Shown here piece by piece: positions 1,737 through 64,000 of a stretch of 64,000 bases of DNA. Under the pieces are notes generated by a model. That model was not told the DNA's origin. It saw only the letters and a list, made by a program, of their open reading frames with translations, and did not search any database. The position numbers and the translations under genes were made by a program. Numbering within the stretch: the first letter of the stretch is position 1; every line of letters begins with the position of its first letter. This stretch comes from Acorus gramineus. Its lineage: Eukaryota > Streptophyta > Magnoliopsida > Acorales > Acoraceae. The stretch covers positions 8,059,360 through 8,123,359 of the forward strand of contig CM060857.1 of the NCBI GenBank assembly GCA_030737835.1. The letters run 5' to 3'.

Positions 1737-4700
1737 TCACTCATCTGAATCACTAGAATCTATGTCCTTAATCTCTGGAAGAGAATTCATAGAAGGTGTG
1801 TCAGAATCATATTGGAAACCTAGCTCCTTCCCTTTATCCAAAATAGGACTGTTTGGCCTTCTGCTTTTATCTGGCACAGTAACAACTGAAGCTGCATCTT
1901 GTCTAGGTTCCAAAACATCACCACTCAAATCACTGGCTGAGACCACAGCATTGTTATCACAAGCAACAATGCCACCATTTACGCCGCAAAGGCGAGACTC
2001 GGATGGTTGGACATCAACCATACTTTGATCTTCATCTTCTCCTCTCATATCCACATCAACAGTGTTTCTGGATTCCTCGGTTCCTCCAATGGCACCACCC
2101 AAAACCTTGCTATTTGTCATTTCGGCTTCAGCATGTTTAAGAATGACCTCCCCCGCATCTTTGGAATCCCCTGTTGGCTTATCTGGGTTGTGTGTGTCAT
2201 CTTTGGTTTCTTCAAACCCCAACCAACTATTGTATAGCTGCTTATCGTCAAGACCAATGTCATCTTTTAAAAATAGCGTTTTGGGCATCTGATCACTGGA
2301 ATTTATACTGTCCAGAAACTTGTGATTATCATTTGCTGGGATGTCTGACAGCGGAAGGGCCCGGGGATGGATGAGTACTTCTAGGGCCATTGTTGCGTGT
2401 GCACAGAACTCGGCAAGTTTTGTACCAGTTTCTTGCTTTCCTGCAAAGACATATCAATAATGCTTTCAATTGAAACAGGGAATGAACAACTTTTTTTGAG
2501 AAACTTGAGAAGCTATTGTTCATTTGTTTGCAAATGAGAATTTACCTCTCTGAAGAAGTTCAAGTCCTTGAGACAAATAAGGGGGCCGAACATGAGCTGG
2601 AGAGAGAAGGGATGCCAAAAGGGCCTTAAATGCAGCAAGCTGAAAGTCAGCTCGAGTGATCGATTGTTCATTTACCATCTTTAGAAACTTCTCCCCATGC
2701 GACCATCCTGCATGGCTGGCATTTGTTGCTACGGTTACCAAGAGGAGGTCCACATCTGAACGCCAAGATTCAGACCCAAATGCACCGCCCTGGAAAAAAA
2801 AAATCCAAACAAGCTATAGATGAACTCTTTTTTTTGTTCTTTAACATAACATAATTGTGAAAGCCGAACACAACAGACACGGGTTGGAAATATGAAATGA
2901 GGTACTACACAACAACCAACAAGTATAGGCTCTACTAAAGAACAACCAATATAAGATTTAATGAAGTCATGGTGAAACAGAACGGCTTACATGTTAGAAA
3001 ACATTTGTTCTAACTGGTCATTATAGGTAAGTTAATGATGGGTCAAGTTATTAGCTAATTTAAACAGAAGGGCACCAACTAAATGATAGGGTTGGCGACT
3101 GTAAAAATAAGTCTTACTGATTGTTAACAAAGAAATTTCTGGATATATTTGTTGTAGACGATCCACAATAGGCAGAAAAAGAAGAAGAAAAAAGAGTGCG
3201 AAGGTTACCAAAATCACTTAGTTCATCAATTAGATTACGAGAGATCCTAGTGAGAGGAACCAAAAAAATCAATATGGCATCTCACCCACACGTGTGAAAG
3301 ATGTCACACATATATGCTGCATGCATGCAAGCAAGCGCACTTGTACATATACACACCCACATGGACATGCACACTCACACCCACAGATGCCGACGGTTAA
3401 AGGAGTGGTATGATATAATGGAGAACAAGGAACAGTGATATATACCACATTATAGAAGAGATTGATAGTCTGAAGTTGGTTGTTGTTGAGAAGTACCCTG
3501 CATGGTACATAGAGTATTTCATGCAATGCATCTTATGATACTAGCTAGAGTCATGGCAATTAAAAGACATAAAATCGGTAATGTATGATCACATATCACA
3601 CAAAGCAAGAGTTTTATTTGAGGACTCATGAGAAGGAAAAATACCACAGTTACAAGGTCTTCAAGTGCCTCCAGTGCAGCTAATTGAACAGACATTGGGG
3701 CTGTTGGTTTACTGCTAAGTGCTTCAATCTCCTGGCATGCCGTGTTTGGGGACTCCTTTGCTGATTCAATACTATGCTTCCTTTTCTTATTGCTACTTTG
3801 CTGAACCACACAGGAAGCTTTTGAGGAATATGCAATGCAAGATACTGAGCCATTCCCATGTGCAATGTAGCCCAAATCAGCAAATGCATTGTTAACTACA
3901 GGCTGAGCAATGTATAGTGCCATTCCTGCTCAAGATCCAATCCTGCGAATTAGTACAACACCTAATTGATTACCCAAATCCATAAACTGAGTGAGAGAAG
4001 GGAAAAAAAAAAAGATATAATGGGCTAGACTAGATAACGAATCCTTTTTGAAGGAGTTATACAAAGAAAGCATTTAAACATGCAGAAAACATTACAGTTC
4101 AAAGAGAACAATGGGAACTCAGGGAACACATGCATTAACTACAAAGTGAATTCTTTTTTCTAAATAAAACTTTCCCGGATTTAAAAAACCATAAGAATTA
4201 GTCTTAAATGTGCAGAGTTGAAAGAAAACAACCAGTATATAGAAAAGTCTGCAGAATTAAGCATCATAGTGTTTGTTAAGCCTGAAATCTAATTCATAAT
4301 GAATTTCAGTGTGGTGCAGAAGGAATTCTATATAATACAAGTGCAGGCCCTATAGGAGAAACAGAAATGGAACTGATTAGTTTTAAAGCAATTGATTTGC
4401 AAATGAATAAGAATGACCTTATCTGGCATTCCATAATCTTTCAAAGGTCCAGATATCTTTCTGGCTGATGTCCCCAGAAATCTTCGAGCGCCACCCCCCC
4501 ACCCCCCCAAATTGGAGTTCTAGTTACTCCTCTGGCTGTACATGAAGGTTGATAGCATGATCAGAATGATGATATAAATAGTTGTGGGACTTAGAACCAG
4601 CAGTGGGGATGTCTCTGAATTTAATGGACTTCGAGGATAAATAGACAATCTGAATCTTGCAGGCAGGGATCCTCAAAAGAACGAAAATAAATTGTTTTGA

Positions 4701-47405: not shown

Positions 47406-50382
47406 TGTTATGCCTGTGTCATTTAAAGCCTTATTTTTTTTTCGATCGGCGTCGTTAAAATTTTGGCTTTTAGCCACCTACGGGAGATGGAGTACTCTGA
47501 TTGAAAATCTAACTATATATTATTGGTCCTGGTACTGTTTGGTCATATCCATAAAAATTTCATCGAGTTCCGGTTGCATTTTAGGAAATCATGCAATTCT
47601 GAATCGTATTCGGGTTTTGGTTGATACTTTGTTGTCAAAGGGGAGACTTTGACCAAGTCAAAGTTGACATTGACCGGTGAACTTGTTTTGTTTGGTTGCT
47701 TGGCTAGGTTGACCAAGGTCAAACCTCCCAACCACCCCCTTTTTGGGCATTGAAAGCTCTCTCTCTCTCTCTCTCTCTCCCCTTCTCACAAGTGAGAAAA
47801 ATCCATCCGACCCCTCTTTGGCTGTCCTTTTGGTTGCTATCCTTTGTTTATTTAAGAAGGAGAAGTGAAGGAGAAGAAGAAGCACAAGAAGGAAGTGCAA
47901 GTGGGAAAGAGGTGTGTGTGTGTTGTTGTTGTTGTTTCTCTTCTCTCTAGCTCCCTCTCATGCCCCTATTATCCCCTGTTTTCAGCCATGGAAGGGCTGG
48001 TGGAGTGGCTGATGAGGTGGTGGTAGTGGTTGTGGTGGCTGAGGTGGTCATGGGTGTGTCGAGAACCCCGCATCTACCCATTTCCTTCCCCCTGTTTTGG
48101 TAAGACAGATCTCTCTCTCCTAAAGATCTCTGTGAAACTAGTAATTAGAGGCATATTTTATGGATAATATCTCATGTGACATGATCATCTATGTGTCTAG
48201 TTGTTATATAAGAAATTTGGGGTCATTATGATATTTGTGTTGTAAGTTAGAAACTGTTTTGCATGGCCTATCCAGATTCGATCAGGAATTGACCTGCTTC
48301 TGGAAATAATTTATTTCGAGCTTGCAGAGGCACAATTAGGCTATCATGTCTTCTAGGATTATGATCCCAACATGTCATAGAATGTGTATGATTTATTTCA
48401 TAATTTTTGGATGTGTATTTGGTGCTATGGAGATCAAATAGTAGAGCTAGTGGCAGTAGGTTTAGCAGTTTTGCTCGATTGTGTGTCAAGGAGTTGTTAT
48501 GCATGTTGTGGAAAGTATCAGGAGTTAGGGTCTTCATGAAGTAGGCTTATATGTGTGTCAGAAGATTTCATATTTTAATTGTGGATCATTGGTTGTGTTT
48601 TGCAGATCTCGTAGACCGGACGCGCGGCGATCCGGGTATCGGTGAGTGGTTCGATCCAACCCTTCGGGAAGCGTTGGATGCACGTAGTCGTGTGTCACGC
48701 ATCCGTTGGGCACCCTGACTATACTATTTATTTAGATAAGTAGTATGGTCATGTCTAACCCATAATATGCTAGGTATTTGCATGCTAGGTTAGTATAGCT
48801 CGTATATTGTGTAGAACCCCCTAATTCTACCATATACTTGCCTATGTATCATATTCATGTATGAATTATTATGTTTTCATGCGCCCTTCATGCATGGGCA
48901 TGTGTGATGTGTGTTAATATGAATGTATAGAATATGCATGCCTTAGGTAGTCCCTATTTATAGTACTACCTCCCTATGTTAGTAATATCTAGCATGATTA
49001 ACTTGGGTTAATAACCGGGTGCATACTTATTATTCCCTGGTCATAAGACTGAAGGATGTGGTATGGTTGTTGCACCCATCTTGTTGGGGCAAAGCTATGA
49101 CCAGCTTCCGAAGAGGATGAGACTTTCCCTCTCTCTCGCCCTCCCTCTTTGCATGAACTGAGTAAGTAGATGCGATTTCCTACTCGACTCAGGTTCGTTT
49201 GGGAATATTGGCATGCATCTACTAGTGCGCGAGATCCCGCTTGATCCTTCCATTTTAAGTTGGTGATATCCAACGCATTTTAGGGTATATGCTTGAATGC
49301 TAGTATGCTTGTATGAGGTATGCTTGTATGCTTGAATGCTTGTATGCTTATATGAGGTATGCTTGTATGCATATTATTTAGCCCATGCATGGTATGTATG
49401 TTGTATATATATATATTGTTTATCCTTTCTATCCATGTTAGGGAGTATCCCTATAATTATTTGATATGTTATCGTGCATGTAGTTCATGTACATAACTAA
49501 GATAAAATTCTTCTGTATATATATGCGCATGTTAAAACTGATTAGGCCTATCTGAAATAGGCGAGGGTATGACCCACTGTCAGGTTGTACCTTATTAATT
49601 AGAGCGCTAGCGATGTAATCGCCCCTTGCATCCGAGCGATGCACTCATTTGGAATTCAGGAGAATTCATTATCTTATCGGTTTTGTTAAGCCGGTAGTTA
49701 TGGCATTAAGCTAGGCCTACCCATGTTAGGTGAGTGTATGAACCGCCTGTTGGGTTATGCCTTAGGGCTTATGTCTGTGCGAGAGCAGAGGTGACTCCCT
49801 GCGTCTGAGCGACGCACCTCTATGGGAGTTCAAGCCTATTTCGATAGCATCGGTATGGGATTACTGAAGATAGTTGATTTTCTACCCATGTTTTTTTTCC
49901 TTGAAAGGAAATTGCATTGAATTGTTGTGATGGTGTTGGGTTTCCAGCTACTCACTGAGCTTGTGGCTCACCCCTCGCGTAATGCTTCTTTTCAGGGGCA
50001 GTGTTGGGCGTGGAGCTGGAGCTTCCCTGTGGCGTGGTCTTGCGTGGGTGGAGCGTTCTGTTCGGCGGTTGGCGAGTGCGAGGCTATCAACAATCCTAGA
50101 GTCATGTATTTGTAAATCGTGCATGTTGCACATGATGTATTTTATTTGGATTAGATTTGGCTCTCACAGGACAATGATTGTGTATTCGAGTCTGTAATAA
50201 TGTTTTTGGTTTACAGACTTATTGATATTTTTATGCTTCCGCATTTTTAGTTGATATATTAGTTATCATTGTTTTGCTAGCTTTGTGTGTTATTTATTGG
50301 AGTCATTGTTGACCTCTTGTAATTGATAGCTGATGCTTTATATATTGTCACGTCTCGGGGACAGCCGCCTTGGGACGTGACA
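47406..50382 (+). mobile_element. Complete solo LTR of a Tekay/Del-like Ty3/gypsy element
   Basis: Starts TGTTATGCCTGTGTCATTTA and ends CTTGGGACGTGACA, 2,977 bp, flanked by 5-bp TSDs. It is an older relative of the LTR at 55699-58688 (2,990 bp, other strand): shared words, in order, include GTGTCA at the start, TGCAGATCT with GACGCGCGG-like sequence and GGTGAGTGG, GGCTCACCCCTCGC, CTGGAGC, GGCTCTCACAGGACA, GATTGTGTAT, GAGTCTGTA, GCTTCCGCATT and GGGACGTGACA. A (CT)n run at 47757-47780 and a short minisatellite of TATGCTTG units near 49290-49375 are internal features. No internal region or second LTR is attached, so it arose by LTR-LTR recombination. Confidence 0.88.
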
Positions 50383-52724: not shown

Positions 52725-55434
52725 GTAAAATTATCTATTTCTCCTCCGTTCATGCCTATGTTATTATGATCTGTTGATCTAATGTATATGAGAGTTGAGT
52801 ATGAATTATATTCATGTTTCTCAAATTTATGTTGTGATATATATCCATAGGTTTCTTGAGGTCTTATCCTGTTAATTTTTAAATAATATATTATCAGAGG
52901 TTAAAGGGAATAAACTTTCACTAAACTGTTTAGGGTTTACTACAGATTAATCTATAGGGTTTGGTCGATGAAAACATTTGTTTTTGTATGCTGTTGGTAG
53001 ATATAATTCAATGGTAGGTGATTGATTACTTTTTAAGTGGAAAACCTGATTTTTCTTGTGGGATTTGATGTAGTTTATCATTTTATTGATTGGTGTATTT
53101 AAAGATTTGTGGTACTATCTCTGTGTTGGATCCTCCCATGGGGGTGAGTGTACTGCCTATGTTCTTAAAAAAATATGATATTGTTGATCTTTGAAGAAGT
53201 TGATCTTCATTAGGAATTCCAGTTGAGTCTGCAAATGAGGTTCAATCTCTGAAAATTACCTCCCTCTGTTTATCAGATGTGTTAACATCCAATAACCAAG
53301 CCTTTCAAGACCCTTAAATGAATGAAACCCAATGTTTTTTTTTATGTAAATTGTATGCTTTAAAAGAGTGTCCTAATATTATTTGATGATAAGCTTCTTA
53401 GTGCGGGATCAAATGCCACTAACATCTACTTGTCATGGCTAAAGAAAAAGAAAAGCTTTTAAATTGTTCACCACCATAACAAGCTAAAGTGTATCACTGT
53501 CAAACTTAAATGAAAAGGACATATAATTGGGATATGTGGGGTTCATTCATGTGAGGGGGGAAGTATCCCTATCAAATATCATCAATACATCTATCATATC
53601 AAACTTATATACCAACTTGCCCTAAAAATCTTGGTCCCACTTTTTATTTGTGGGCTAACAGTCGCAGTTGATGTTTTAATTAAGTACCCTGTACATCACA
53701 AGCTTCCACGGACTTCTTTCAGGTTCTTTTATATAATCCTAAGTACCCCTAGCAAAATAGGACATTCTAATTATGATTTTATCCCTGTTCCATTTAAACC
53801 CCACACTTAAATGCAACCAAACATCACCACAATAGTCAGGCCTTAATAAATTAGAATAAACCCTGATAACAAAGCTTGAGAAGACATGTACAGTATATCC
53901 CTACATAGAGTGCTTCATTTTATCACTCACTATCTATGTGGCATAATTGTTCTAACTTGGATGTACTATGATTTGAATGAACTACTCCTTTTGCAAAGTT
54001 GGTCTCATTAATTTTTTTGAAGTTTGGTGTCTTGTTTTAGGAGTTATTCCCTAGTCACTACCGTGAGGCGAATGGATTTGTAATATGGTTATAGTCTGTT
54101 CACTGATTTTTGTGTCTTCATTACTATTCATGTACACTCTACAAGGCTGATCTTCCCATGATTTTTTGGACAACCTTTAAATTCTTGTACACTATTGCAT
54201 TGAAATGTCTCCAAAATACAATGCAGTTAATACGAGTTGGTCTCATATGAACGATGAACTTATAAGAGTGATGTTAAAGAAATGGAAGAAAAATACATCT
54301 ATATAGGCTTCAAACAAATCAGCTAACTTGGCCATAACTACCACAAAATATTGTGATACACTCTAATTTCAATTCAAACATATCAGCTAACTTGTAAGAG
54401 TTGATCTTGGATTCTTTTGCTTAATTGATTTTATGTTTTGGTCTTTTGGGCCTTCTTCAAGGCTTGGATTTAGTTGAGATGCATTTTATGTTTCAACTTT
54501 ATCACTATTTTTTTGATTATGTGATTGTTATTTAAAAATGGAATACACTACTGAACGAAATTTCTGAAACATTCTCATTAGGAATTTCTTCTAATTATGT
54601 TGGACAACATTTTTTAACATATCCTATATTTGCATTAATATTATTTTCATTTTCAGGCATACCATACATGGGTTTTACGAATACTTGACTATATGTATTA
54701 CTTAACCAAAATTGTATTTGAAGAATGTATTTTATTAACAAAGTCTTCCTTAAAAAAGATGGCTTGGATGTTTAGTGAAGTATGGTTTTGGTGGGTTAGT
54801 TAATGACCATGTGAAGATGGATGCTCTTACCATTTAAGTCGATATCAATGTATAATATATGAGTAATTTAACACATGATTTGTTTTCTGTCCACTCTGGT
54901 TCCACATGGAGAGTTCTTGGAGAGGACACATCACCATTCTTGTGAAGATTTTTAGGCTCCACAAACATGATTGAATTAAAGAAAGAATCCAAGACCAGTC
55001 CTTTTTGTTTCTTCCATTCTACTAGAATGGAAGAATCAAGCACATATGCTAATAAAAAGTCCATCCTGAAAGTCATATTCTACATGAGTGCCATAGAAAT
55101 AACATTGATGTCTCAATGAATGACAAGCTTAATATTTGAATGACTTTTTTTTTTGTCCAATTACTCCATTATTAAAGGAGGATGATGAAAACATTTTAAA
55201 AGAAAGTTAGTGAATGTTTATTACATTTGAAATGGTCTTTCTTCATTCTCTTGATTTCCCATTGCACTTCAACATCTTCTTTACATACATTGTTCTCAAA
55301 TCAGTACTAATGGATTTCCACATCTCCTAGTACCTGGTATAAATGGCATCCCTTTTGTATCCGGAACACCCTTATTTTTAGCTTGAGATAATCAATGGTT
55401 ACAACATCTTTTTTTATTTTTTTTTGGAATGTAG
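52725..55434 (+). other. Probable long 5' UTR intron
   Basis: AT-rich sequence between the donor GTAAAATT and an acceptor with a T-rich tract (TTTTTTTTTTGGAATGTAG). No genes or bounded repeats were recognised. The minus-strand ORF at 54834-55076 has no recognisable protein. Confidence 0.4.
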
Positions 55435-55437
55435 AAA

Positions 55438-55698
55438 ATGGATTCTAGGACTGGTAGGGCTTCATGGAGTGCGGAAATGAAAAAGCTGTTCATTGACTTA
55501 TGTTTAGAACAAGTCAAATTAGGGGGTCGGTCTGATTCAAACTTAAAAACATCAACGTTGGAAGAAGGTGAGGGAAGAGTTTAATAACAAGAATATGAAA
55601 AATTATGATCAGAGGCAATTCAAGAATTACTGGGACATGTTGAGGAAACAATGGAATGCCTGGAAGAAACTGATTTCCATAACTGGCATAGGAGAGGG
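55438..55698 (+). pseudogene. Myb/SANT-like (LIMYB or Harbinger ORF1 type) N-terminus, frameshifted and interrupted
   Basis: From the ATG at 55438: MDSRTGRASWSAEMKKLFID and further residues, then a one-base insertion (extra T at 55558/55559) puts the rest in another frame, where VREEFNNKNMKNYDQRQFKN and YWDMLRKQWNAWKKLI follow. This is the Myb_DNA-bind_3 trihelix-like domain of L10-interacting MYB proteins and of the Harbinger transposon companion protein. The frame then runs into the LTR at 55699. So the gene was broken twice; which came first is unknown. The rest of the gene should lie beyond the far LTR, outside this window. Confidence 0.7.
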
Positions 55699-58688
55699 TG
55701 TCACGCCCCAGGGCGGCCAACCCCGGGACGCGGCAAATGTATACATATCATATCAGAAACCTACACAGGAGGTCAACAATATATATCATACACAATAAAC
55801 AGAATGACACACAATGACAAGAAGCTGACATGATATATACACCTAATGCGGAAGCAAAAGACTGAGTCTGTAAATAAAACATACTACAGACTCGATACAC
55901 AATCATCTGTCCTGTGAGAGCCAATATATACAAATAACAACTGAATATATACAACACGTGCTCAGCACGGAAATCCAATACATACAGCCAAGGAAAGGGA
56001 TGCTGATAGCCTCTGGTACTCGCGGACGTAGCGCTGCTCCGCTACTGAAGAAATCCCTCGGAAAGCTCCAACTGCTGCTCCGGCTCCAGCTCCAGCTCAG
56101 TGGCAACTGGGGAAAAACATATGCGAGGGGTGAGCCACACGCTCAGTGAACGGCACAACCCATGCATCACAGACAATATTGACCACAACATATTAATCCA
56201 GCCATTCATCCCGCCTCAAAGGGGCAGGAACAACATAACCATTTATCCAATCCAGATCATACCCTCACCCTTACCCCTCAACAGGGGACTCAGGATTTTG
56301 GGACTAACTATCATCAATAAACAAGACCAGCGGGTCGCTTATCGCCGACCCACTACACCCTCACCCTCACCTTTCCAAAGGTGACATAGGATTTTGGGAC
56401 TGATAAACATTCATAAACAAAACCAGTGGGTCGCTCATCGACAACCCACTACACCCTCACCCTCACCTTTCCAAAGGTGACATAGGATTTTGGGACTGAC
56501 TAGGCTGTTGGTCGCCCTTGGTCCACCGGTAGCCTCTCCTCCACACCGTAGCTTACCTGGTCTACTCCCACATTCAGCACAGTCCGAGTCCAAGATCAGG
56601 AGGTGCCTACTGATGGGAGCCCTCTGTCAGGATAGCCTGTCTAACGCTGAGGAGTTCCTACTCGGATCCAACGAAGGGAACAGAACAGCCTATCCATCGC
56701 ATATGATCCACTCGGATCCGCTGACAGCACAAGTCTATCACTCTAATGTCTCGAATTCCTCAGAATTCCACCAGCGCGCATAACCAAGATGCGGGGAAAC
56801 ATATATTATAACCCCGAGGTTATAATATTCTCTATAGTGCCATGAATTCATCAGAATTCCCTCCAGGGCGCATATCCAAGATGCGGGGAACATACAGAAT
56901 AATATGAGGAAAAGAGACCTGGGGAGGGTAACCGTGGGTCCCGATGTGGGACAACCCGCCAACCATGCAAGGAACACGGAGTACCCTAACACGGGTCTCA
57001 CCGCTGTCCTCGCTAGGCCCCTCCCCTATAACATTCTCTAAGCATGCTATTAATTATACAATCCATATTATCATGGGCATGAATCTAACACACTAGTATT
57101 TAATTTAATTTAATAAATAAACTAGTAGGACGCATGCATAGGCCAAGGCTTCCTATCATGAAAACAGGAGGCATGATGCATGGCTCTTACACGTATCCTA
57201 AGGGTGTAAGTCCCTAACATACAGAGTCTAGGGTAGCATGCATTCTACATTTTCATCATGCTCACATGCAATACATGTTATTACAGGTTAATATAATCCA
57301 TGTCGCCCCAGGAGAGGTCGGTATACGCCCAAGTGCGTATAACACCTCTCTACTGGGTTGGATTGTCCCACTCACCAGTATCTGGGTCGACGCGCGACCG
57401 TCCGTCTAGATCTGCAAGACAGACATTCACTGGTTAGTATTAATCCACAATTATCATTAAATACATACATAACCACCCCAAAACCCACAACAAGCATCCA
57501 ACACCTCCCCAACAACTACCCGCGGCCTCGGCAACCACCCGCACGGCCCCCGGCAACCACCCGCACGGCCGGCCACCGCCCGCACGGCAACCACCCGACT
57601 GCCCGGACGCGCCGCCGCGGGCCCCGCACGTCTTGCGCCGGTCCGCGAGCACCCCGCGCGCTCCCGCACGCAGTGCCTCGCCCCGCGCGCACCTCCGCCA
57701 CCTTGCCGCACCTCGCGCACACCTCGCACGCACCTCGCACACCTTGCCGCACCTCGCGCGCACCTCGCACGCCTTGCCGCACCTCGCGCGCACCTCGCAC
57801 GCACCTCGCACACCTTGCCGCACCTCGCGCGCACCTCGCACGCACCTCGCCGCACCTCGCCGCGCTTCCCGCGCGCACCCGACCTGGCGCCGCCTGGGGT
57901 CGCTGCTGCTGCTGCTGCTCGGCCCGGACGACCTGCCGCTGCCCGAGCGCCACCACCACTGCCCGAGACCACCCAAACCACCTTCCAACCACCCCCGACC
58001 GCCCTCCGACGACCCCCACAGCCGCCGACCACCCCCAATCACAAAAACCCCTCCCTAGCATTCATCTAAGCAAGAAAAGGAGGGAAAGAAGGCTTACCGA
58101 GGGGAGGGAGCGAAGTCCGGACGCTCTCCGCGCGCCGAAACCTTCCTCAAAGGCTTTCCCACGCCCCGATCTATCACGGCCCTCGATTTGGCTCGAAACA
58201 GAGGAGAGAGAGAGGGGGACGGAGTGGCAAAACTCGCCGGAACGGGGATTTAAAGACACCGGTGTGTAGATCGGGACCCGATCTACACTTCCCGTGCTTT
58301 GGGTTTTCGATTTTGAGGGGTCTAGGGGGCTTGAAAGGGTGAAAAACGAGAGAGAGGAGAGAGGGATCACGTCGGGAGAGACGATGAATAGTGCCTTTTT
58401 GTTTTATTTGATTTCCTTTTATGAACAAGTCACTTAAAAACCCGGATACGCCCCGGAACTGCGAAATTTTTGCAAACGATGCTAGAATTCGATGAAATTT
58501 TCGTGAGAGGTCTAAAATGGCACCAGGACACCAAATATGCAGTTAGATTTTCAATCGGAGTCCTCTAACTTAGGACGATAGCTAACAGTCCAAAAATAAG
58601 CGGTTCCGATCGAAAAACCGGTAAAAACCGAAAACTGCCAGAACGCTCTAACGGTTACCAACAGGTTAAAAGTGACACATATATAACA
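55699..58688 (-). repeat. 3' LTR, 2,990 bp
   Basis: On the minus strand starts TGTTATATATGTGTCAC and ends CCCTGGGGCGTGACA. It includes three tandem units of about 96 bp (CCCTCACCCT, GGATTTTGGGACT, GGGTCGCT, CCCACTACA) at about 56266-56510, a near duplicate pair ending GATGCGGGGAA at about 56750-56905, and a very GC-rich minisatellite at 57690-57880. ORFs on both strands here are by-products of the repeats. Confidence 0.92.
57690..57880. repeat. GC-rich minisatellite in the LTR
   Basis: Iterations of CACCTCGCACGCACCTCGCA and CACCTTGCCGCACCTCGCGC units with variable length. The whole block 57530-58040 is much more GC-rich than its surroundings. It produces long open frames on both strands (Arg/Ala/Pro/His-rich), which are composition artefacts. 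Confidence 0.8.
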
Positions 58689-58702
58689 TTATTCCCCCCT
58701 TA
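58689..58702 (-). other. Polypurine tract
   Basis: On the minus strand CTAAGGGGGGAATAA stands directly before the 3' LTR start TGTTATAT. This is the primer for plus-strand DNA synthesis in Ty3/gypsy elements. Confidence 0.85.
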
Positions 58703-58960
58703 GGAAATTTTGTCCCCAAAATTCGCCAAAAACATCTAGGAGGGGAAAGATGCGGATACGCGTCGAACCTGGCCTCCACGAGCTCCCAAGTGTCCTTAAC
58801 ACCGGAACGGTGCTGCCATCGCACCTCGACCAACTGGACGGTCTTGGTGCGGAGCCTCTTCACGCGGCGGTCCATGATCACAATCGACTGCTCCACGAAT
58901 GACGGTCCGGCTCGAAGACAACGGCTCGAACGGGATGACGTGAGCAGGATCGCGGACACA
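58700..58960 (-). pseudogene. pol C-terminus with chromodomain-like end
   Basis: The frame reads SIVIMDRRVKRLRTKTVQLV and EVRWQHRSGVKDTWELVEAR before the polypurine tract. This matches the (I/V)LDR-V--LR-K-V--VKV-W-----EE-TWE pattern at the end of plant Tekay/Del polyproteins. The frame is open over 97 codons (58666-58959) but is isolated from the rest of pol. Confidence 0.7.
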
Positions 58961-59048
58961 TCGCCTCAGCTACGAGACAAGGATGACGTCATGGGCATAA
59001 GCCAGCGGTGGGGGAAAGGCTACTTGACAAGCCACCTCCCCGATCCAC

Positions 59049-59474
59049 TCAATGACGAGAAAATATCCCATTAAAGAGCAAACTCAGCTTGCCCCGAACG
59101 TCAAAACAGAGGGTGCCCTTAAACCAAGACACCACCACGAAACATGGTCGCCAAACCCGAAGGTAAGCTTCTGGCGACGATGACCTGCGTAGCCCCTCTA
59201 ACTGGCGCTCCTCAACCGTCCCAACATAACGGAGGTATGAAGCTGCGCCTGTAGAGTGCCCTTCACAGATCCATCCAGGTGCTCGAATGGCAGTCGCTTG
59301 CAGGCATACCCCAACAAACGGGTGGTGCCTCACCCAACTGCCCTCATCCTCAAGCACGCAGGCAATTAGCATGTCCTCCAAGGTCTGAATCGTCCTCTTT
59401 AACTGGCTGCCCATCGACGATGAAACGCTGCACTTAAATGGAGGCTTGCGCCAAAGGCTGCGCCACAGCCTCAA
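59049..59474 (-). pseudogene. Integrase C-terminal part
   Basis: Shows SQLKRTIQTLEDMLIACV (family: SERTIQTLEDMLRACV, the end of the integrase core) and FDVRGKLSLLFNGIF (family: VRGKLSPRFIGPF, the GPF/Y module). The DD35E catalytic region and much of the zinc finger are absent or unreadable. Confidence 0.7.
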
Positions 59475-59839
59475 AGTACCCCTCGCGTCTCAACCGAAAT
59501 AGTGCCGACTGGAGTGCCATGAAGACGAACAATCGCGAAGGTGAAAACCCACGTCGAGGCGCCCAGAGACTCCTTCAGTCCGATAGGGAGGGAAGCGCGG
59601 ACTTAGTCAGTCGGTCAATGACCACCTAGACTGCGTCGTGACCCGGACGTGACATTTGCGAGTCCCCAACAATCCCTGATAACCCACTCCACGTCCACTG
59701 AGGAATCTCGATGGACTGACGCTTTCCACTCAACGATGATTATCGAACTTTGCCTGAGGGCATGCCAGCCTGGGGAAACAAGGTCACTCACATCACCTTT
59801 TCATCATACCCCAGCAATCTCTATGAAGACTACCCTAAG

Positions 59840-60115
59840 GTAGTCCACAGAGGCCCAATAAACTTTTGAGATCCACGAAGGCATCCGGCGCATTCGTCAA
59901 CCCCGACGGCAGTACTTAAAACTCGTAGTGCCTGAACGGTCACGAAAGGCCATCTACGGGACGTCCAACTCTCGGATCTCCATCTTGTGGTACCCTTGTG
60001 CGAAGATCGATCTAACAGCAGACACTCGCTCTCAGAGCTGGTCAAATAGATCATCCATTCGCGGCAAAGGTAATTTGATCTTCAACCTCCACGGGGAGAT
60101 CAAAACAACTCCATG
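59840..60115 (-). pseudogene. Displaced reverse transcriptase fingers/palm fragment
   Basis: Translating the minus strand gives KLPLPRMDDLFDQL, stop, then GYHKMEIRELDVP, stop, MAFRDRSGTTSF and LTNAPDAF. These match in order the family blocks [37 protein letters not shown] and LTNAP-AF. The catalytic YxDD block is not present. The fragment stands downstream of the RT C-terminus and RNase H pieces, which is the reverse of normal order. Confidence 0.75.
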
Positions 60116-60514
60116 AACAATCAAGTTCGGATTCTGCTCCTCGAGCGTGGCTGGCGCTCATGATAACACTTACACACTAGGTAAGCCGCTCAACCGCACT
60201 TAATCCTCAAGACACGCAATAAGGGGTCGCCGAATCTCGACAATGCCTATGCGACGTCATCAATCTGATAGGCGGTTGAGTCCCATCACGAACGCTAGCA
60301 TCGCGCCTCCTTAATTGCGACCGATGCGGGGCAAAACGCAACAGTATCCGAAACTGTGCTTACATGCCACCAGAGATAGGCCGCTCATCTACCACCATCG
60401 GAATTCCGGCATCCTGCACTCCATGGGCAAATTCATCACGGGGAGTCCACGCTCTCGCCATCATTTAGCAGCACTCTCCCGGTGTGGCCTCCACCTGGTA
60501 GCCTCCCAAGCCTG

Positions 60515-61080
60515 CTATATCTGCCATATGGGCGCACCAACAAGCATAGGATCTGGGAGCACCTCACAGGGCTCTGGCCTCAACCGAGCAGCTACAACAC
60601 AATGATTTATCGAGGCGACTCCAGATGCCACTATGGAACCCTGTCCACTAGCGATCGCCCACTTAGCTGCAATAGGACGCACCCGATCCCGATCGAATGC
60701 ATCACCACACCCAACCGCGATGCATCGGAGCAAACTGCGAACCCACCCCTCCCAAACGGAAAGGTAAGAACTGGCGCTGAGGTGAGCCTCCGAGTAAACT
60801 CCAGGAAGCTCCCCTCGCAAAACGGGGGACCACTCGAACCGGATATCCTTCCGAGTGAGGCGGTTAAGAGGAGCAGCTATCTTCGAGAATCCCTCGTCAA
60901 ACCTCCTGCAATAACTCGCCAAACTCCGGAAGCTCCGAATCCTTGCGGGGTTCGACGGCCTACGCCAATTCGACATAGCAAGCGTCTTACCCGGGTCCAC
61001 AGATACGCCTTAACCAAAAATTCAACCAGCCCAAAAGGCCCAAATCTCCAACCAAAACTCGCACTTAACCCACCGTCAAT
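60515..61080 (-). pseudogene. RT C-terminus and RNase H start
   Basis: A minus-strand frame reads KCEFWLE, stops, VSVDPGK, then MSNWRRPSNPARIRSFRSLA, SYCRRFDEGFSKIAAPLNRL, TRKDIRFEW, which is the RT thumb and connection. A shifted frame continues FLEFTRRLTSAPVLTFPFG and FAVCSDASRLG (RNase H start with its Asp). Near 60430 VPRDEFAHG resembles the start of the integrase zinc-finger region. Several stops and at least two frameshifts. Confidence 0.75.
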
Positions 61081-61099
61081 TTGATGCTTCTAAGGTAGT

Positions 61100-61720
61100 C
61101 CTTGACTGGGAAAAGAAACCCTGACAGGGTACCATGAGGTCCCGATATAGGATACCCCGACAACCAAACAAGGAACACGGAGCACCCTAGCCCGGGTCTC
61201 AACGCTGACCCTGCAAGGCCCCTCATCCAGAGTAGGAAGTCTGGAAGAAGACATCACTCTTAAAGAACACTATTAACCCCACTGGATCATCTACATCTAG
61301 ATAATCACCCATCGATATCCTTCAACATCCATCACAAGACCGGACCCAACATCATCGGGATCGGTCTAACAACAATTTGGTCACGAGCGACCCGTCTTCG
61401 CCTCATCCACACCCTCACTCCCGAAAGGAGACATTTTGGGACTTTGGGAGAGACTTAGACTGCTCTCTACCCCTGGTCCACCGGTAGCCTCTCCCCGCTC
61501 CGTAGCTCGCCTGGTCCTCTGACCGGGAGCCTGTCTAACGCCGGGGCTGTACTACGCGGATCCGACGAAGGGGAGAGCGATTCCACGCTCGCGACACCAT
61601 TCAATAACCTCTTACCGGGTAGCCCCTACCTAGCATACTCCCAAATTCAGTACCCCTCCGACTGCATCGGCGGTACCTACTGATGGGAACTCACTGCCAG
61701 GACAGCTAAAACCCGGCTTT
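61100..61720. repeat. LTR-derived pieces inside the interior, in swapped order
   Basis: 61105-61225 resembles LTR block 56920-57030 (ACAAGGAACACGGAG, CCCGGGTCTCA, CAAGGCCCCTC). 61410-61690 resembles LTR block 56480-56660 (ACCCTCACTCCCGAAAGG, TGGTCCACCGGTAGCCTCTC, GCCTGTCTAACGC, CCTACTGATGGGA). In the LTRs the second block comes first. Both keep the same orientation. They differ clearly from the flanking LTRs, so they come from an older or different copy. Confidence 0.75.
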
Positions 61721-61747
61721 CTTAACCCACTCAACCACTCTTAATTT

Positions 61748-62023
61748 TCACACACCAAATGCCACACACACTTGCATAATAGCCACCAAGGGGACCTGCG
61801 GAACTGCCTCGAGGGCTGCCCGCAGCTCCCGAATCTCACTAGCCTGCTCTGCCAACACTCTCGTCTGTGTCTCCACCAAATCAGCCAACCGAGCGAAAGC
61901 ACGCTCCCAAGCAGGAGGCTCCTGCGTCAAGGGCTCTCCAGTAGCATCCTCGTCTCTGGTAGGTCCGGAAACCTCCAAAGACCGAGAGGGACCTCGTCCG
62001 CGCCGTCCTCTGCGAGGAGGCAT
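61748..62023 (-). pseudogene. gag N-terminal fragment
   Basis: MPPRRGRRGRGPSRSLEVSG is the typical Arg/Gly-rich gag start of Tekay/Del elements, followed by a coiled-coil segment (AFARLADLVETQTRVLAEQA). After about 85 codons the frame leaves gag homology and runs into LTR-like sequence. Capsid and zinc-knuckle parts are missing. Confidence 0.7.
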
Positions 62024-62124
62024 ATCAGCACCCTAAGAAAACCAGACACTAGGATCAGAATACTCATCTCGAAATCCTAGGACTCATCTCTACGAAGGAA
62101 GACTATTGGCTCTGACAGGACCAG

Positions 62125-62136
62125 GCTCTGATACCA
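62125..62136 (-). other. Primer-binding site (tRNA-iMet)
   Basis: On the minus strand TGGTATCAGAGC, five bases after the 5' LTR end GTGACA. It is complementary to the 3' end of initiator tRNA-Met, the usual primer of plant Tekay/Del and most Ty1/copia elements. The site is intact. Confidence 0.92.
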
Positions 62137-62141
62137 ACTTT

Positions 62142-64000
62142 TGTCACGCCCCAGGGCGGCCAACCCCGGGACGCGGCAAATGTATACATATCATATCAGA
62201 AACCTACACAGGAGGTCAACAATATATATCATACACAATAAACAGAATGACACACAATGACAAGAAGCTGACATGATATATACACCTAATGCGGAAGCAA
62301 AAGACTGAGTCTGTAAATAAAACATACTACAGACTCGATACACAATCATCTGTCCTGTGAGAGCCAATATATACAAATAACAACTGAATATATACAACAC
62401 GTGCTCAGCACGGAAATCCAATACATACAGCCAAGGAAAGGGATGCTGATAGCCTCTGGTACTCGCGGACGTAGCGCTGCTCCGCTACTGAAGAAATCCC
62501 TCGGAAAGCTCCAACTGCTGCTCCGGCTCCAGCTCCAGCTCAGTGGCAACTGGGGAAAAACATATGCGAGGGGTGAGCCACACGCTCAGTGAACGGCACA
62601 ACCCATGCATCACAGACAATATTGACCACAACATATTAATCCAGCCATTCATCCCGCCTCAAAGGGGCAGGAACAACATAACCATTTATCCAATCCAGAT
62701 CATACCCTCACCCTTACCCCTCAACAGGGGACTCAGGATTTTGGGACTAACTATCATCAATAAACAAGACCAGCGGGTCGCTTATCGCCGACCCACTACA
62801 CCCTCACCCTCACCTTTCCAAAGGTGACATAGGATTTTGGGACTGATAAACATTCATAAACAAAACCAGTGGGTCGCTCATCGACAACCCACTACACCCT
62901 CACCCTCACCTTTCCAAAGGTGACATAGGATTTTGGGACTGACTAGGCTGTTGGTCGCCCTTGGTCCACCGGTAGCCTCTCCTCCACACCGTAGCTTACC
63001 TGGTCTACTCCCACATTCAGCACAGTCCGAGTCCAAGATCAGGAGGTGCCTACTGATGGGAGCCCTCTGTCAGGATAGCCTGTCTAACGCTGAGGAGTTC
63101 CTACTCGGATCCAACGAAGGGAACAGAACGGCCTATCCATCGCATATGATCCACTCGGATCCGCTGACAGCACAAGTCTATCACTCTAATGTCTCGAATT
63201 CCTCAGAATTCCACCAGCGCGCATAACCAAGATGCGGGGAAACATATATTATAACCCCGAGGTTATAATATTCTCTATAGTGCCATGAATTCATCAGAAT
63301 TCCCTCCAGGGCGCATATCCAAGATGCGGGGAACATACAGAATAATATGAGGAAAAGAGACCTGGGGAGGGTAACCTGGGGTCCCGATGTGGGACAACCC
63401 GCCAACCATGCAAGGAACACGGAGTACCCTAACACGGGTCTCACCGCTGTCCTCGCTAGGCCCCTCCCCTATAACATTCTCTAAGCATGCTATTAATTAT
63501 ACAATCCATATTATCATGGGCATGAATCTAACACACTAGTATTTAATTTAATTTAATAAATAAACTAGTAGGATGCATGCATAGGCCAAGGCTTCCTATC
63601 ATGAAAACAGGAGGCATGATGCATGGCTCTTACACGTATCCTAAGGGTGTAAGTCCCTAACATACAGAGTCTAGGGTAGCATGCATTCTACATTTTCATC
63701 ATGCTCACATGCAATACATGTTATTACAGGTTAATATAATCCATGTCGCCCCAGGAGAGGTCGGTATACGCCCAAGTGCGTATAACACCTCTCTACTGGG
63801 TTGGATTGTCCCACTCACCAGTATCTGGGTCGACGCGCGACCGTCCGTCTAGATCTGCAAGACAGACATTCACTGGTTAGTATTAATCCACAATTATCAT
63901 TAAATACATACATAACCACCCCAAAACCCACAACAAGCATCCAACACCTCCCCAACAACTACCCGCGGCCTCGGCAACCACCCGCACGGCCCCCGGCAAC
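62142..64000 (-). repeat. 5' LTR, partial (cut by window end)
   Basis: Corresponds to 55699-57557 with an offset of 6,443 bp. Visible differences: one A/G near 63130, a GTG/TGG difference near 63377 and one C/T near 63575. Confidence 0.92.

Follow-up and report, generated by a model that had tools for sequence, protein, structure and literature searches.

That plant transposons can live by moving with proteins made by other elements is known. In wheat, systems that combine autonomous, gag-only, and degenerate members have been described, and a change of partner through transfer of long terminal repeats (LTRs) has been discussed for them (PMC9744471). Here we describe a case with a clear recombination record in a 64,000-bp stretch of the Acorus gramineus genome (the window: GCA_030737835.1, contig CM060857.1, positions 8,059,360 to 8,123,359 of the forward strand), from the first base of which positions are counted. 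Window positions 55699-64000 are occupied by a minus-strand LTR element, probably of the chromovirus type (Ty3/Gypsy), that ends about 1.1 kb farther on. This element very probably belongs to a recently amplified, non-coding, chromovirus-type family, here called family A, that is moved in trans and recombines with its relatives.

Angela resembles family A in that degenerate interiors are still moving, in that it has gag-only semi-autonomous members, and in that LTRs and internal regions have different histories, which the authors suggest could have arisen by gene conversion or template switching. It differs in being a Copia element (by its RLC code), whereas family A is chromovirus-type and small (at least 11 copies), and in that the gag-less members of the window family are mosaics with a pol-less sister family, called family B. 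A soybean autonomous/nonautonomous pair with LTR swapping was reportedly the subject of Du et al. 2010 (Plant Cell 22:48-61); judged by its title, LTRs were exchanged between partner families, as in locus L041 below, and the pair presumably differs from the window family in host and in lineage. LTR elements with gag only are called TR-GAG elements. That definition (a complete gag frame, no pol) describes family B, whereas family A, including the window element, has a gag stump of only 94 amino acids (aa). RLG_Cereba and RLG_Quinta of Einkorn wheat combine an autonomous partner with a gag-only element, linked by a shared primer binding site (PBS), shared LTR termini, and a shared part of the LTR, an approach like the one taken here; those elements are centromere specific, with a CR-domain integrase, whereas the window family is without gag as well (PMC11302176). 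In non-autonomous grass pararetroviruses, non-coding regulatory sequences of partners are homogenized by region-specific recombination, as might be compared with family A, but those are viruses, whereas the window family consists of LTR retrotransposons (PMC5491270).

The window element has two direct LTRs with TG...CA ends, a PBS, and a polypurine tract (PPT). A preliminary description of this DNA had reported that no pol frame is open and had proposed that the interior was defective before insertion; the first statement was confirmed, since the longest minus-strand interior frame, among stop-to-stop frames of at least 80 aa, is 164 aa (60515-61009). The second could be judged from other copies with the same scrambled interior, which do exist. 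A 2.4-kb part of the interior (58693-61090) was found at 11 or more loci with 99 to 100% identity over its whole length. Nine of 11 copies (all except C2:7231865 and C53:3423720) were compared over the full interior and showed 4 to 47 mismatches per ~3,450 sites, 0 to 4 gap runs, and the same architecture, with ~335 extra bp in one of the nine. The window interior differs from those of five other copies by 6 to 10 mismatches per ~3,450 sites, and the same 94-aa gag stump frame is present in all 11 copies. Seven copies, L041 not among them, were read at both ends: the 5-bp target duplication is perfect in five of them and has one mismatch in a sixth, and the seventh, the window copy, has none. 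The right end of the C62 copy does not have the usual terminus. When 16 flanks of up to 130 bp were compared, a single local match was found, an inverted 63-bp stretch. Perfect target duplications were also seen at five of seven single LTRs inspected. Since the flanks and the target duplications are separate, the defects predate the insertions, as had been proposed; the element was thus broken before it gave rise to the A copies, each of which was inserted separately.

The ancestry of the interior was traced with four fetched loci of family B and two fetched loci, L042 and L043, of an older gag-less group. Over interior positions 1 to 270, B is 94 to 99% identical to the window element, and over positions 2701 to 3453 it is 91 to 100% identical, except in the gag-junction block (86 to 87%). 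B does not have window-interior positions ~270 to 2040 but carries ~1.1 kb more gag; its interiors are 2.8 to 3.2 kb and therefore have no room for pol. The older group shares the decayed core (92 to 93%), lacks most of gag, and is only 54 to 93% like the ends of the A interior; it accounts for 29 partial matches at 90 to 93% among the best 40 interior candidates scored. Diagnostic sites were defined as window positions at which two B copies agree with each other and differ from the older group. On the PPT and PBS sides, B-like and older-like sites stood at 101:22 (versus L043) and 127:11 (versus L042), whereas in core block 2401-2700 they stood at 5:19 and 3:32, respectively. Block 2030-2400 does not discriminate (1:1 and 10:12). 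Fisher's test of the ends against the core block gave 1e-8 (L043) and 4e-22 (L042), values that serve as guides only since neighboring sites are not independent. The interior parts most like family B are the gag start with its leader and ~270 bp beside the PPT. The view that family A kept only its LTRs, PBS, and PPT was therefore too narrow, since these two parts were kept as well.

Whole LTRs have also changed partners. Locus L041 (C11:8864000-8873999) holds an A interior, six differences from that of the window, inside B-type LTRs on both sides; these LTRs have 94.7 to 98.9% identity to B and 86.9 to 90.0% to A, and they are 97.9% identical to each other over the part compared. A second A interior, at C2:7231865, has a B-type LTR adjoining it, by coordinates. 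The B LTR type (93% over LTR positions 1 to 1103) was present at 18 or more loci among the best 40 scored, including two with an A interior. When nine A interiors were compared, all four gametes were seen at 72 of 190 informative site pairs, and the window LTR, set against B LTRs, is a patchwork of 100-bp blocks with 71 to 100% identity. Recombination among these elements is thus well supported, and template switching in particles, rather than gene conversion in chromosomes, would be our explanation for it. Family A is a clear case in which non-coding retrotransposons have boundary signals that follow those of a relative around an interior that is no more than ballast, and the exchanged blocks (the LTR, the leader with the gag start, and the PPT side) suggest which parts a passenger RNA must have in order to be copied.

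Trans-mobilization of a non-coding family would best account for these results, on the grounds of shared defects in separate insertions, mosaic ends, and LTR exchange, all read from the sequences themselves. Family A, which keeps LTRs, PBS, gag-start leader, and PPT, makes no complete Gag or Pol. Its RNA would be packaged, reverse transcribed, and integrated by Gag and Pol of related elements in the same genome, with family B supplying Gag and gag-pol relatives supplying Pol. Template switching between co-packaged RNAs would then swap ends and LTRs around the dead core. Which proteins mobilize A, and that the exchange takes place during reverse transcription, we infer. The earlier suggestion of a parasite family that uses the proteins of a partner thus gains support from the shared-lesion insertions, with movement in trans still a matter of interpretation. 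Several points weigh against this reading. The copy numbers are minimum values, since the best 40 of 11,288 LTR candidates and the best 40 of 5,352 interior candidates were scored. The search found no pol-bearing element whose LTRs come as near to those of the window family as the B LTRs do; in the putative gag-pol relative examined, L045, LTR blocks are 77 to 87% identical and the leader is 82.5% identical. Gag is open from its start in one of four fetched B copies and broken near the start in the other three (C85, C3, and C9). Finally, the window copy has no target duplication and its two LTRs carry different family variants; its history is therefore more complicated than one clean insertion.

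Candidates for the protein sources were found within both classes of relative. In the B copy at C64, the gag start opens a frame of 476 aa, with a Pfam Retrotrans_gag match of 63 bits and a sub-threshold zinc knuckle; among the sister copies, this one fits a gag-only (TR-GAG) element. A gag search, in which the best 150 of 3,503 candidates were scored, returned the 11 A copies and 139 others that match residues 1 to ~85 at 89 to 95%; 58 of these 139 have open frames of 440 to 534 aa, and the set may mix gag-only and gag-pol elements. At C110, a 651-aa frame containing reverse transcriptase (RT) lies ~2 kb from L045, which shares the LTR terminus, spacer, PBS, and gag start with the window family. 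Locus L044, adjoining the C86 copy, contains frames for gag, protease, and RT that are split into pieces, with domain names assigned by eye. The C86 copy itself (L029/L044, C86:510000-517700) sits ~355 bp inside an LTR of another element, one that has frames for gag, protease, and RT. Of the best 150 candidates scored, 10 were chromoviruses with open frames as long as 1,257 to 1,547 aa. One of them, L046, inspected over 1.5 kb at the expected frame start, was rejected as a direct partner; it is of another lineage, its gag start being different and its match near the PBS only 32 bp long. From these comparisons, family B is the likely source of Gag for family A, and for Pol the likely class of source is that of gag-pol relatives sharing the LTR terminus and PBS.

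A competitor to this division of labor is that A is moved solely by a gag-pol element and that B is a parallel passenger rather than a helper. In its favor, gag-pol relatives have a Gag gene of their own, besides the PBS and LTR terminus that they share with A, and gag is broken near its start in three of the four B copies fetched; against it, the ends of A are 91 to 100% like B (86 to 87% in the gag-junction block) and 54 to 93% like the older group, and the leader of the gag-pol relative reaches 82.5%. We rate movement by a gag-pol element alone as quite possible, though somewhat short of an even chance. With Gag from B and Pol from gag-pol relatives, the system might extend to a chain of three levels, in which a gag-pol element serves a gag-only family that uses its pol, and a gene-less family uses both. 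The gene-less family would stay compatible because template switching would repeatedly supply it with the leader, the PPT side, and sometimes the LTRs of the gag-only family, and its dead core would be passed on all the while. This chain we put forward tentatively, as an idea with a little less in its favor than against it.

The age of the window copy was at first taken from its LTR pair. The preliminary description gave about four differences in 1,859 comparable LTR bases, and the count is exactly 4 mismatches (56687/63130, 56934-56935/63377-63378, and 57131/63574) and no gap. The complete LTRs (2,990 and 2,970 bp), however, differ at 30 of 2,942 aligned sites, with 6 gap runs in the pairwise alignment, and 26 of the 30 differences lie beyond LTR position 1859. 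In a multiple alignment, which gives 31 differences, there are 22 for which each of the two variants also occurs among 20 further LTRs of family A; at 5 of the 31 the left variant, and at 4 the right variant, is absent from those 20. Over LTR positions 1 to 1860, the window right LTR shows 0 differences from the right LTRs of the C86 and C76 copies, 1 to 4 from the other LTRs of C86, C76, C5, and C75, and 34 to 46 from the LTRs of C2 and C7, in which a different variant block is present. Window LTR blocks 2557-2610 and 2870-2900 track other copies. Because other copies have most of the variants in left as well as in right LTRs, and because non-partner LTRs can be closer than partners, we conclude that the window LTR pair does not date its insertion; use of the pair as a clock was ruled out, and with it the recent date drawn from it for this copy. 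In families that recombine, an insertion should not be dated from the near identity of the two LTRs at one locus.

These data raise the possibility that the window copy is older than its LTRs suggest and that conversion or recombination with other copies altered them. The variants shared with other copies, the clustering of 26 of the 30 differences beyond position 1859, the closeness of non-partner LTRs over positions 1 to 1860, and the missing target duplication all fit an older copy. Its interior, however, is only 6 to 10 of ~3,450 sites from those of five other copies. The LTR pairs of six other A copies, which have target duplications (one of them mismatched), are 4 to 24 differences apart per ~3,200 sites (0.12 to 0.75%), and the family is therefore young. 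We consider a greater age for this one copy unlikely, though well short of negligible; recent amplification of family A as a whole is the reading that we keep.

The insertion site adds to the picture of a copy with an unusual history. A GAGGG target duplication had been expected, but the flanks are GAGGG on the left and GGTTG on the right. The element cuts an exon of a host Myb/SANT-like gene on the plus strand (55547-55698; Pfam Myb_DNA-bind_3, E value of 1.9e-07, 32.4 bits). Sequence of the gene lies at 55300-55698 and appears to resume past the right LTR (L010, from position 472), and the frame continues across the flanks without a target duplication: the left exon ends in ISITGIGEG, and the right flank continues with VAPGQTVQMDQERWDEQIK, followed by an intron-like gap and then AHPEVKQFKYKPLAHADEMEQLFGG, a tail that we take to be typical of Myb/SANT-like genes. 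When the flanks were joined without overlap, a single continuous Myb_DNA-bind_3 match resulted (profile positions 31 to 94 of 96; 29.9 bits). Because the left part by itself scores 32.4 bits, the profile lends the right part little support, and the case for one gene depends mainly on the frame. Thus a single insertion site, with no duplication to be seen, is probable for the window copy. Insertion without duplication would be one explanation; another would be that the right-hand duplication was lost, possibly when the right LTR was altered.

The two remaining alternatives are both very improbable. Decay in place, whereby an autonomous element inserted recently and then lost gag and pol where it lay, would likewise leave, at any one locus, two similar LTRs with a dead interior between them, but it was rejected on the evidence of the same lesions (interior, gag stump, and architecture at 11 loci, nine of them compared in full) at separate insertions with unrelated flanks and different target duplications. 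Spread as genomic DNA, by segmental or assembly duplication instead of retrotransposition, might be suspected from the near identity of the copies and the short contigs on which some lie, but segmental duplication was rejected on the evidence of target duplications (perfect in five of seven copies, or six with one mismatch allowed, and in five of seven solo LTRs) next to TG...CA ends and of flanks that are unrelated apart from the one inverted 63-bp match. For the window copy in particular, the right LTR differs from the left and is followed by other sequence, and it is therefore not a plain assembly duplicate; its far end, sought beyond position 64000, lies at C11:8124470 (approximately window position 65111).

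All parts of the window element lie on the minus strand. The left LTR (55699-58688, 2,990 bp) is its 3' LTR; in the plus strand it starts with TGTCACGCC and ends with ...TATATAACA, and it contains a GC-rich tandem repeat array at ~57485-57847. Complete family LTRs and solo LTRs range from 2,905 to 3,360 bp in length. The right LTR, the 5' LTR of the element, begins at 62142, is cut by the window end at 64000, and runs to ~65111. Between the LTRs lies the interior (58689-62141), in which the PPT and PBS noted earlier were both located. The PPT, CCTAAGGGGGG (58694-58704), was read from the sequence 5 nucleotides from the LTR, and its bases beside the LTR are identical in the other full copies fetched. 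The PBS, TGGTATCAGAGCC (62124-62136), which we take to be iMet type, has a 5-nucleotide spacer from the LTR terminus.

Within the interior, the PPT-proximal part (58689-58960, the segment 94 to 99% identical to B) overlaps a 99-aa frame with a sub-threshold Pfam Chromo match (E value of 0.024, 15 bits; cut-off, 25.1). The decayed pol core follows (58960-61390), with stops and frame breaks, and is 85 to 98% like the older gag-less group in most blocks; its 164-aa frame carries a remnant of the RT/RNase H region, and the same stretch can be recognized by eye in the RT frame of L044. LTR-like pieces at 61108-61516 stand in an order not that of the LTR (LTR positions ~1210 to 1325 and then ~754 to 864). 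They were located by cross-matching interior and LTR queries on L041, the interior of which is 6 mismatches from that of the window, and similar pieces also occur in the sister groups. The gag stump (61748-62023) starts with MPPRRGRRGRG in a stop-to-stop frame of 94 aa. It contains the gag deletion junction, a 7-bp repeat at 61783-61789 where ~1.1 kb is gone relative to the sister family; CCACCAA flanks the extra gag stretch at both ends in all three of the sister copies compared (four were fetched). In the older group, L043 and L042 have gag junctions related to that of the window but more damaged.

Pfam searches with five pieces of the window interior gave no match above the cut-off. The tentative assignment of the family to chromovirus-type Ty3/Gypsy elements draws on the sub-threshold chromodomain, on the Retrotrans_gag match of the sister family, which is above its cut-off, and on RT likeness by eye; the lineage is presumably the one named Tekay. 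Elsewhere in the window, older sequence on the opposite strand (47438-50382) has both of its ends 68 to 70% like the ends of the window LTR and probably represents an old solo LTR from this lineage.

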